A stretch of 64,000 bases of DNA. It comes from Salipiger abyssi. Its GTDB lineage: Bacteria; Pseudomonadota; Alphaproteobacteria; Rhodobacterales; Rhodobacteraceae. The stretch is taken from the NCBI RefSeq assembly GCF_017311415.1, contig NZ_JAEKIS010000002.1, forward strand, positions 62,001-126,000, read 5' to 3'. Made by a program: the position numbers and the translations under genes. Positions 5,507 through 48,692 of this stretch are shown here, piece by piece. Position 1 is the stretch's first letter, and each line of letters opens with the position of its first letter. The notes beneath the pieces were generated by a model. That model did not search any database and had not been told where the DNA came from. It was given only the letters and a program-made list of their open reading frames with translations.

Positions 5507-5633
5507 GCGCGATTCCCTGCTGCTGTCGTGGCGTGCCACGGGGGATGATCCCCAAGTCCTGCGGCCTGATCCGCCTGCGCGCTTGAGTATTTGCGACACG
5601 CGCCGCGCCGCCTGCGACCTTGGCGCGCATGTC

Positions 5634-5662
5634 TTGCGAGTGTTCATGATATGTTCTAATAT
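5634..5662 (+). promoter_or_regulatory. LexA-controlled promoter of the PA0069-type radical SAM gene
   Basis: GTTC at 5642-5645 and GTTC at 5653-5656 are separated by exactly seven bases, the alphaproteobacterial LexA box GTTC-N7-GTTC. The box fills the 17-bp spacer between a -35-like TTGCGA (5634-5639) and a -10-like TAATAT (5657-5662). Initiation 7-8 bases downstream would fall at the ATG at 5670, implying a leaderless message repressed by LexA. Confidence 0.7.
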
Positions 5663-5669
5663 TTTCTTT

Positions 5670-6755
5670 ATGACCGACAGCCCCCGATCCGTCGCGCCCG
5701 AGCACCGTCGCGCCCGTGGCGCCGCCAGCCGCGAAACCGGGCGGTTCGAACGGTTGCAGTATGAGGACACGCATGACGGATGGGAGATCGAGGAGGAACT
5801 GCCGCCGCTGCGCACCGAGATCCGCGAGGAGCGGCCGCGCAGCCTGATCAATTATGTGCGCTCGCCGGATCTGCCCTTCGACCGCACGATCAACCCCTAT
5901 CGCGGCTGCGAGCATGGCTGCATCTACTGTTTCGCGCGGCCCAGCCACGCCTATCTCGGCCTGTCGCCCGGGCTCGATTTCGAAACCCGGCTGGTGGCGC
6001 GGCCGGAGGCGCCGCAAGTGCTCGAGCGCGAGCTGCGGGCGAAGCGCTACAAGGTGGCGCCGCTCGCCATCGGCACCAATACGGACCCCTACCAGCAGGC
6101 GGAGCGCGACCGGCGCATCATGCGCGGCTGCCTGGAGGTGCTGCGGGACTTCCGCCACCCGCTGGCCATCGTCACCAAGGGCGCGCTGGTGGAACGGGAT
6201 ATCGACATTCTGGGAGAGATGGCGGCAGAGGGGCTGGTGCGGGTCGGGATCTCGGTCACCACGCTGGATGCGGATCTGGCGCGAAAGATGGAGCCGCGCG
6301 CGCCCTCGCCGCGCCGGCGGCTGGCGGCAATCCGGCGCCTCAGCGCGGCGGGGATCCCGGTGCGGGTCATGGCTTCGCCCATCGTGCCGGCGCTGAGCGA
6401 TCCCGAGCTGGAGCGCATACTGGAGGCCGGGGCAGAGGCGGGGGCGACGGCGGCGAGCTGGATCATGCTGCGGCTGCCGCTGGAAGTGGCGCCGCTCTGG
6501 CGCGCCTGGCTCGAGGAGCATTATCCGGGCCGCGCGGCGCGGGTGATGGCGCGGCTGCGCGAGATGCATGGCGGGCAGGACTATTCGGCGCGCTGGCATC
6601 ACCGGATGCGCGGCGAGGGGCCTTATGCGGAGATCGTGGCGCAGCGTTTCGACAAGGCGGCGCGGCGGCTGGGGCTGGATGCGGAACAGCCGCGTCTGCG
6701 CTGCGATCTGTTCCGGGTGCCGGCGCGGGCGGGGGATCAGCTGAGCCTGTTCTGA
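5670..6755 (+). CDS. PA0069-family radical SAM protein (spore photoproduct lyase-like)
   Basis: 361-residue radical SAM enzyme. The cluster motif CxxxCxxC is Cys80, Cys84, Cys87 in RGCEHGCIYCFARPSHAY, the arrangement typical of the PA0069 and SplB-like group, which is related to DNA photoproduct lyases; the actual substrate is not established. A longer open frame starts at 5505 but would run through the promoter, so MTDSPRSV at 5670 is chosen. The LexA box directly upstream supports a DNA-repair role. Transcribed convergently toward the small gene at 6823; two 22-bp palindromes separate them. Confidence 0.88.
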   Translation: MTDSPRSVAPEHRRARGAASRETGRFERLQYEDTHDGWEIEEELPPLRTEIREERPRSLINYVRSPDLPFDRTINPYRGCEHGCIYCFARPSHAYLGLSPGLDFETRLVARPEAPQVLERELRAKRYKVAPLAIGTNTDPYQQAERDRRIMRGCLEVLRDFRHPLAIVTKGALVERDIDILGEMAAEGLVRVGISVTTLDADLARKMEPRAPSPRRRLAAIRRLSAAGIPVRVMASPIVPALSDPELERILEAGAEAGATAASWIMLRLPLEVAPLWRAWLEEHYPGRAARVMARLREMHGGQDYSARWHHRMRGEGPYAEIVAQRFDKAARRLGLDAEQPRLRCDLFRVPARAGDQLSLF

Positions 6756-6762
6756 GGGTCGC

Positions 6763-6806
6763 CAAATCTCTTCGAAGAGATTTGCAAATTCCTTCGAAGG
6801 AATTTG
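6763..6806. repeat. Tandem pair of 22-bp TTCGAA-centred palindromes (locus 1)
   Basis: Two perfect 22-bp palindromes abut with no gap. The first (6763-6784) has arms CAAATCTC and its complement around TTCGAA; the second (6785-6806) has arms CAAATTCC and its complement around TTCGAA. The pair lies between convergent genes. The same architecture recurs at 45393-45436 with different but still self-complementary arms. It could act as a bidirectional terminator or be a REP-like repeat. Confidence 0.85.
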
Positions 6807-6822: not shown

Positions 6823-7053
6823 TCAGCGCAGAATCCTCACCGTATCGCGGTTGCAGAAGACGATGATCTGCCCGGCATTCTCGACCGCGCGAAAGCCGCG
6901 CCGATCGAGCTCGGCCAGAAACCTCTCGCGCCCGACGATCCGCTCGATATCGCGGCTGTTGCGCCGCACGACACCGCCCGAGGCCGCCGCGCGCGAGGCG
7001 AAGAGATGGCCGAGCCAGCGGTCGGGGGAGATCGGAAGCGGCATGTCTGTCAT
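6823..7053 (-). CDS. Small conserved-looking basic protein (76 aa)
   Basis: The frame MTDMPLPISP... ends in ENAGQIIVFCNRDTVRIL. It lies 35 bp downstream of the homocysteine methyltransferase gene on the same strand. The protein is rich in Arg, with a helix-strand pattern (DIERIVGRERFLAELDRRGF) and no signal peptide. Homologues in this bacterial group have, as I recall, sometimes been labelled phosphoribosylanthranilate isomerase, but 76 residues without a barrel cannot be TrpF. An internal ATG at 7044 is an alternative start. The function is unknown; position suggests association with the methionine gene group. Confidence 0.65.
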   Translation of the reverse strand: MTDMPLPISPDRWLGHLFASRAAASGGVVRRNSRDIERIVGRERFLAELDRRGFRAVENAGQIIVFCNRDTVRILR

Positions 7054-44484: not shown

Positions 44485-45354
<870 letters not shown>

Positions 45355-45360
45355 CGCAAA

Positions 45361-45391
45361 CCGCCCCGCGCCATATGTCGGCGCGGGGCGG
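45361..45391 (+). terminator. Long GC hairpin after the quinone reductase gene
   Basis: A perfect 12-bp stem, CCGCCCCGCGCC (45361-45372) and its complement (45380-45391), encloses ATATGTC. There is no U-tract, but it lies directly after the stop codon and before the tandem palindromes, between convergent genes. Confidence 0.65.
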
Positions 45392-45392
45392 G

Positions 45393-45436
45393 CAACTTCC
45401 TTCGAAGGAAGTTGCAGGAGTTTTCGAAAACTCTTG
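45393..45436. repeat. Tandem pair of 22-bp TTCGAA-centred palindromes (locus 2)
   Basis: First unit 45393-45414: arms CAACTTCC and complement around TTCGAA. Second unit 45415-45436: arms CAGGAGTT and AACTCTTG around TTCGAA, one G-T pair. Units abut with no gap, just as at 6763-6806, and again lie between convergent genes. Confidence 0.85.
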
Positions 45437-45454: not shown

Positions 45455-45955
45455 TCAGGTGCCGCGATAGGGCTCGACATATTGCAGCGCCATGTCCCAG
45501 GGGAAGAAGATCCAGGTGTCCTGGCTCACCTCGGTGATATAGCTGTCGACCATCGGCTTGCCCTTGGGCTTGGCATAGACCGTCGCCACATGCGCCTTGG
45601 GCAGGTGGCTGCGCACCACCTCCAGCGTGCGGCCCGTGTCCACCAGATCGTCGACGATCAGCACGCCGGTGCCGTCGCCCATCACCTCCATATCGGGGAA
45701 TTTGATGACCCGCGGTTCGCTCTGCGTCTGGTGATTGTAGCTCTTGACCGAGATCGTATCGACCATGCGGATGTCGAGCTCGCGCGCCACGATCATCGCC
45801 GGCGCCATGCCGCCCCGGGTGATCGCCACCACCGCGCGCCATTCGCCGCCCTCGTCGGGACCGTGCCCCTGAAGCCGCCAGGCCAGCGCCCGCGCATCGC
45901 GGTGCAGCTGGTCCCAGCTGACGTGAAAACCCTTCTCGTGCGGCAGCCGGTCCAT
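45455..45955 (-). CDS. gpt: Xanthine(-guanine) phosphoribosyltransferase
   Basis: Purine salvage enzyme making XMP/GMP from bases and PRPP. 166 residues; PRPP motif [13 protein letters not shown] at 98-110, the base-binding region [17 protein letters not shown] at about 45-60, and ETWIFFPWD-like C-terminal motif ([12 protein letters not shown]) that is characteristic of the Gpt group. It lies 10 bp downstream of fabI, same strand. Confidence 0.95.
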
Positions 45956-48615: not shown

Positions 48616-48692
48616 CGGGGCGTGGCGCAGCCTGGTAGCGCGTCTGTTTTGGGTACAGAAGGTCGTGAGTTCGAATCTCGCCGCCCCGACCA
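48616..48692 (+). tRNA. tRNA-Pro (anticodon TGG)
   Basis: 77-base cloverleaf: acceptor CGGGGCG/CGCCCCG, D-loop with GCCTGGTAGC, anticodon stem TCTGT/ACAGA with loop TTTGGGT (anticodon TGG), T-arm GTGAGTTCGAATCTCGC, discriminator A, and encoded CCA at 48690-48692. Confidence 0.97.

Follow-up and report, generated by a model that had tools for sequence, protein, structure and literature searches.

Several kinds of bacterial hairpin are found downstream of stop codons. In E. coli operons, PMC5927463 describes hairpins without a uridine tract at protected mRNA 3' ends in 26 of 34 cases, with 17 of 26 protective hairpins located inside the downstream coding sequence, and cites the puf hairpin of Rhodobacter capsulatus as a case of a barrier to decay. 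The puf and malE-malF (E. coli) hairpins are both intercistronic and lack a uridine tract (PMC5927463). In Rhodobacter sphaeroides, the stopping of PNPase by stable structures is put forward as one explanation of wild-type 3' ends (PMC7866481). The canonical (L-shaped) intrinsic terminator carries its U-run directly after the stem, whereas a V-shaped class, defined by two unseparated hairpins behind a stop codon, makes up 0.1% of the hairpin cases in 1060 genomes according to PMC8355165. The REP repeats and BIMEs are described as short multi-copy palindromes downstream of coding regions, between codirectional or convergent genes and rarely between divergent ones (PMC3733652, PMC2817692), and stem-loops in general are reported to favour convergent gaps and the 50 bp after stop codons (PMC1590033).

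The window analysed here, a stretch of 64 kb, contains four 22-nt palindromes arranged as two pairs (A and B), together with the following neighbours:

6763..6784, no strand: pair A unit 1, 22-nt palindrome, 9-bp stem CAAATCTCT/AGAGATTTG, loop TCGA
6785..6806, no strand: pair A unit 2, 22-nt palindrome, stem CAAATTCCT/AGGAATTTG, loop TCGA, zero spacing to unit 1
5583..6755, + strand: gene for a PA0069 family radical SAM protein, upstream of pair A and ending 7 nt from it, start codon uncertain
6823..7044, - strand: ORF converging on pair A, 73 aa if the start is 7044, stop 16 nt from the pair
45393..45414, no strand: pair B unit 1, stem CAACTTCCT/AGGAAGTTG, loop TCGA
45415..45436, no strand: pair B unit 2, stem CAGGAGTTT/AAACTCTTG, loop TCGA, one G-T pair on the + strand (A-C on the - strand)
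44485..45354, + strand: NmrA-like NAD(P)-binding protein gene upstream of pair B
45455..45955, - strand: xanthine phosphoribosyltransferase gene converging on pair B
45361..45391 (arms 45361-45372 and 45380-45391), - strand: GC-rich hairpin adjoining pair B, followed by TTTGCG on the - strand

The sequence-only reading had placed all four units at these positions, as two pairs with zero spacing, self-complementary arms and convergent neighbours; each of these points holds, three units being perfect palindromes and the fourth (45415-45436) carrying the single G-T pair. Genes were called with a small codon-model gene finder, so that starts are approximate; it missed the short ORF beside pair A, which has no family match in Pfam or NCBIfam. 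The pattern CA-N6-TTCGAA-N6-TG matches four times in the window, against a mean of 0.06 in 100 shuffles, none of which reaches four. At the curated threshold, the sole Rfam match in the whole window is a tRNA at 48616-48689, the pairs being unmatched. The hairpin at 45361-45391, which the earlier reading did not mention, is terminator-like for the xanthine phosphoribosyltransferase gene and is a neighbour outside the twin-hairpin family; it has a short T-run on the side of that gene, and longer T-runs occur in some relatives.

Pairs A and B are members of a discrete, dispersed family. The genome-wide search that the earlier reading had proposed, for zero-spaced pairs of CA-N6-TTCGAA-N6-TG, finds 22 exact pairs in the source genome (5.2 Mb, 75 contigs) and none for the pattern read backwards; exact units number 54, against 2 for the backwards control. 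A covariance model gives 70 matches over both strands in this genome, equivalent to about 35 elements. In two contiguous 400-kb stretches from two members of the genus, chosen in the knowledge that some matches lay inside, there are 11 elements, of which ten score at least 58.5 bits on both strands and one 45.5/41.2, with no match in the E-value range from 3.3e-5 to 1. Searching a plasmid collection with the pair A 44-mer gave no match.

The model matches in 12 of 20 genomes of the genus, and the exact pattern in 13 of 295 genomes of the family (Rhodobacteraceae). Salipiger mangrovisoli belongs to this genus: locus L098, from a record titled S. mangrovisoli 6D45A, aligns with locus L154 of G300, another genus member, at 100% identity over 1676 bases. 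Named carriers, among the matches listed, include Tabrizicola, Rhodobacter, Fuscovulum, Pseudogemmobacter, Salipiger and Alloyangia; the named loci are 80 of at least 116 stretches matched. A class-wide draw of 240 genomes, searched with stricter filters and 26 candidates scored per genome, gives matches in three, namely the source genome, G055 of the same family, which scores about 37 bits and has a slightly different unit spacing, and one weak match outside the family. In the samples searched the twin-hairpin family is essentially confined to the Rhodobacteraceae. The twin hairpins of G055 (L280 and L282, the same sites as L330 and L331) have an extra base between the units and other arms, hinting at a wider class. 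Tandem hairpins of other sequence and spacing are also found in Rhodobacter and Tabrizicola loci (L040 4794, L115 7198, L051 1775). Two records deserve comment: CP059262.1, titled Exiguobacterium profundum chromosome, carries Rhodobacteraceae-type pairs in three loci of 67-68% GC (L096, L105, L107), and its title looks wrong; in L110, from a contig titled Bosea sp. MAG, the pair overlaps a predicted gene end, and this is possibly a misplaced Rhodobacterales contig.

What is conserved is the fold: two 9-bp stems with 4-nt loops, no gap and an outer CA/TG. In 53 pair sequences, hand-chosen for variety from 86 collected, 99.3% of cells are paired, both partners vary in 14 of 18 base pairs, and 208 cells are changed on both sides compared with 52.9 in shuffles; sliding the partner by one column lowers pairing to 56-60%. 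The N6 arms are fully complementary in 132 of 154 units (the 77 placed pairs of the named loci and window, among the matches listed), under a search pattern that makes no demand for complementary arms. The sequence-only reading had argued for selection on folded structure, and the strong covariation, together with the matched arm differences at orthologous sites described below, bears this out. The TTCGAA centre, by contrast, which it took as the shared core, is common but not required. When the centre is left free (CAAA-N14-TTTG twice), matches occur in 11 of 149 family genomes, with loops that include TCGA, TGCA, TCCA, TGGA, TTCA, TTGA and GCAA, mostly T-N-N-A by eye; this variety rules out TTCGAA as a conserved core or as a restriction or binding site. 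The stems are weak (median pair MFE -14.95 kcal/mol in 70 distinct codirectional pairs), and inspection of the pair flanks by eye reveals no consistent pairing into an outer stem.

The units are nearly always paired, as the earlier reading had proposed: five of 261 perfect CA..TG units are isolated, in loci mostly fetched because they carry pairs, and by eye each is a degenerate or cut-off pair. The two units of a pair are never identical. None of 158 pairs has equal arms (8.2 expected), and 3 of 158 have at most one arm difference (31.5 expected; the lowest of 3000 shuffles is 16); among the 117 distinct pairs the counts are 0 for equal arms (5.2 expected) and 3 for one difference (15.8 expected). 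In predicted RNA folds of random pairings, two hairpins are kept in 0 of 79 equal-arm, 40 of 233 one-difference and 746 of 827 pairings with at least three differences. Two hairpins are predicted for 101 of the 117 observed distinct pairs, and the 16 others include all three with one arm difference. Fold classes alone were used here, the predicted energy differences being partly below zero, which is unphysical. Equal units would be expected to fuse into one long hairpin according to the predicted fold, which may explain why the units differ. Instability of equal repeats in DNA is an alternative cause, and the limit is similar with DNA parameters (two hairpins in 1 of 79 equal-arm pairings and in 109 of 117 observed pairs), so the fold rule fits RNA and DNA alike.

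The convergent-gene context given by the sequence-only reading is true of pairs A and B but does not define the family. In the named set of 83 pairs (the window and 80 loci, among the matches listed), 50 are codirectional, 25 convergent, 2 divergent and 5 at a locus edge, while 1 overlaps a predicted gene; pair-free gaps of at least 50 nt in the same set, again among the matches listed, number 179 codirectional, 32 convergent and 82 divergent. The 100 distinct elements of the genus set, which includes degenerate elements and orthologues from near species, comprise 50 codirectional, 47 convergent, 2 divergent and 1 unplaced. Convergent sites are thus enriched and divergent sites avoided, a preference that stem-loops in general share (PMC1590033); with 50 codirectional copies in each of the two sets, a convergent setting does not define the element. 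At 51 of 72 convergent sites the pair is within 40 nt of both predicted stops, and codirectional pairs follow the stop codon by a median of 7 nt (n = 57). The convergent gaps of these loci hold a pair in 29 cases, a canonical hairpin in 46 and neither in 117.

Orthologous sites show the element in several states. The neighbour gene of pair A has a long match in 19 of 20 genus genomes, and in 11 of these the same convergent neighbour follows (by eye, within 150 nt). Ten of the 11 have a twin hairpin and G306 has one hairpin (by eye); this genome is an exception in carrying one lone hairpin at each of the two orthologous sites. Among the orthologues of pair A, arm differences such as CAAATTCCT, CAACTTCCT, CACCTTCCT and CAACGTCCT are matched in the other arm, while those of G302 and G299 carry mismatches. 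In the other eight genomes the following sequence differs and no pair was seen. Of the 20 species, 3 carry pair B (G296 is unreadable there); others have a GC hairpin with a T-run, and in four there is a single AT-rich hairpin (by eye).

A number of copies lie inside likely operons. In the source genome, pairs are found between urtD and urtE (both above the NCBIfam cut-offs), between phnK and phnL (best matches, below the cut-offs) and between the genes for an acyl-CoA dehydrogenase and a 3-hydroxyisobutyryl-CoA hydrolase; these copies between genes of one transporter or pathway are 16-44 nt before the next start. Three further pairs of this genome, with wide gaps, separate genes whose products have no evident link. 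In the named loci, one pair lies between ABC ATPase and permease genes and another between an amino-acid-kinase/PUA gene and an aldehyde-dehydrogenase-family gene, read as proB-proA. Among 13 close codirectional gene pairs compared with Pfam (3 of the source genome and 10 of the 30 named pairs under 60 nt, among the matches listed), five are clearly one system, and in the other eight a shared pathway is not evident.

The urtD-urtE junction measures 9-18 nt in 7 of 20 species, where the element is absent, and 73 nt in five, 79 nt in five and 70 nt in one, where the element is intact or decayed. The fold is clear by eye in 8 of the 20 species, with junctions of 70-79 nt, so that a hairpin without a U-run occupies a probable operon, as at the known decay barriers. 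By eye, G302 and G307 have decayed copies of constant length; in G309 (L361) the junction is 46 nt, shorter by 33 than in its 79-nt relatives, with only the right arm of unit 2 remaining, and G298 has 100 nt and no recognisable pair. Gene identity and the 9-18-nt junction in seven relatives suggest that urtD and urtE belong to one operon. A full terminator at this junction would silence a transporter subunit, which speaks against full termination there.

Taken together, it is most likely that the twin hairpins mark or protect messenger RNA ends. More specifically, we give an even chance to their being an element of 3' ends and intercistronic gaps that stops mRNA decay in the 3'-to-5' direction and acts in both directions between convergent genes. 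A twin hairpin in the mRNA would be a double barrier to 3'-to-5' exonucleases, such that after cleavage, or after Rho-type termination farther downstream, the mRNA of the preceding gene would keep a defined and stabilised 3' end. Within an operon, the upstream cistron could be uncoupled in its level from the downstream cistron, as with the malE-malF and puf hairpins, and between convergent genes both strands could be served by the symmetric element. About 29 nt (median 7 + 22) separate the stop from the second hairpin; this is near the median of 26 nt for the 47 canonical terminators (GC hairpin and U-run) in codirectional gaps of the same loci, and the second hairpin could therefore stay folded while a terminating ribosome covers the first. 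The twin hairpin differs from the puf and malE-malF hairpins in being stereotyped, reused at many sites and also present between convergent genes, with a stabilising role that we infer, and from the protective hairpins of E. coli, which often lie within the downstream coding sequence (PMC5927463).

The main rival is partial termination: the pairs would be compact, bidirectional, V-shaped intrinsic or Rho-assisted terminators without a U-run, setting polarity inside operons, a reading we regard as rather unlikely. As in the V-shaped class of PMC8355165, two unseparated hairpins lie downstream of a stop, here as one dispersed, sequence-related family with fixed 22 + 22 nt, non-identical arms and bidirectional symmetry, found also inside likely operons, termination being putative. 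Pair A fills much of its convergent gap and is kept in most relatives with the same neighbour; moreover, among 97 codirectional pairs just one has a canonical terminator in the 60 nt that follow it, and the 3' arm of unit 2 is slightly richer in pyrimidine on the sense strand (p = 0.024, 70 distinct pairs). However, a U-run is missing: what follows 50 codirectional pairs is GC-rich sequence, with no A in the first three nucleotides and T at 8-16% in each of the first five, and unit 2 has no significant excess of T at its 3' end (p = 0.13; p = 0.15). The same loci carry ordinary terminators with other spacing, which in this genus have one GC-rich hairpin with A/T runs, come later after the stop and are seldom near the next start; several relatives have such a bidirectional terminator at the orthologous convergent junction of pair B (by eye). 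The next start is less than 40 nt away for 29 of 57 codirectional pairs compared with 3 of 47 canonical terminators (p = 5e-7), the latter set coming from a wider detector than the first control (n = 7). An efficient terminator inside an operon would cut off the next gene, so the copies in likely operons count against this reading. The bidirectional terminator of the sequence-only reading may hold at convergent sites, and fits poorly with the missing U-run and with the codirectional copies close to a start.

It is improbable that the pairs are DNA repeats of the REP kind, mobile or gene-converted and of little if any function, the arms of which are kept complementary by template switching during replication. 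The repertoires of unit types are genome-specific (mean match 0.14 within versus 0.047 between genomes, reached in 0 of 300 shuffles; 69 pairs from six genomes, for four of them among the matches listed), which fits gene conversion or past mobility, and the patchy distribution and the decayed copies of constant length at urtD-urtE point the same way. The location downstream of genes, which is that of the REP/BIME elements in PMC3733652 and PMC2817692, agrees with the REP-like alternative of the earlier reading; the variable arms do not. Compared with the elements described there, the pairs have no conserved body or tag, and their units abut without a spacer. The GTAG/CGTC tag is not the rule (GTAG/CTAC in 2 and CGTC/GACG in 10 of 158 pairs), and the Y1-type transposase (RAYT, PF01797) has no match in the source genome while 5 of 14 control genomes are positive. 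Also against a mobile repeat are the near-constant pairing of units that are never equal, the rarity of copies in divergent gaps and the retention of the element at an orthologous junction.

The level at which the fold acts, RNA or DNA, can be approached through strand asymmetry. For REP repeats, PMC3733652 took frequent G-T pairing as an argument for transcription. In 92 codirectional pairs read on the sense strand, G-U occupies 16 cells and A-C 17, an equality that a mobile repeat or a DNA element would also give, in a weak test that includes shifted or loop-side positions of degenerate units. The flanks are likewise strand-symmetric, with no A just downstream and little T just upstream, and both observations argue against action in RNA alone. 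In favour of the transcript are the short distance from stop codons and the order in which the units would be transcribed (AATCTT is first in 14 pairs and second in 1, AAAGTT in 2 and 10, related copies included). A DNA-level element, with twin cruciforms or single-stranded DNA hairpins serving, for example, supercoil relief or protein binding behind genes, would suit the symmetry, the mostly T-N-N-A loops and the two-hairpin limit under DNA parameters, but it is the least probable reading and a distinctly unlikely one, given copies tied to stop codons within a few nucleotides and a unit order that is polar for some types.

The decay-barrier reading may be extended, tentatively and at rather less than even confidence, to a lineage-specific mRNA boundary element that would act as a two-way double lock on 3' ends at convergent junctions and as an intercistronic divider of expression in operons, with units that must differ to avoid fusing into one long hairpin, and that would have been spread or homogenised without a known REP transposase. 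V-shaped hairpins, REP-like placement and decay barriers are known kinds; as far as searched, what is new is a stereotyped twin of two dissimilar hairpins that recurs at many sites within one family. No description of this family was recognised in the literature on tandem or bidirectional terminators and on Rhodobacter, Roseobacter or alphaproteobacterial palindromes, a survey confined largely to open-access papers; the word Rhodobacter is absent from the main text of PMC12306157 and PMC3733652. The avoidance of identity between neighbouring hairpins is a directly testable rule. Natural variants are available at the orthologous junctions, where the element is intact, degenerate, reduced to one hairpin or missing; they allow measurement of the influence of 3' hairpins on transcript ends and on cistron ratios in the Rhodobacteraceae, and knowledge of the family would improve operon and terminator prediction in these bacteria.
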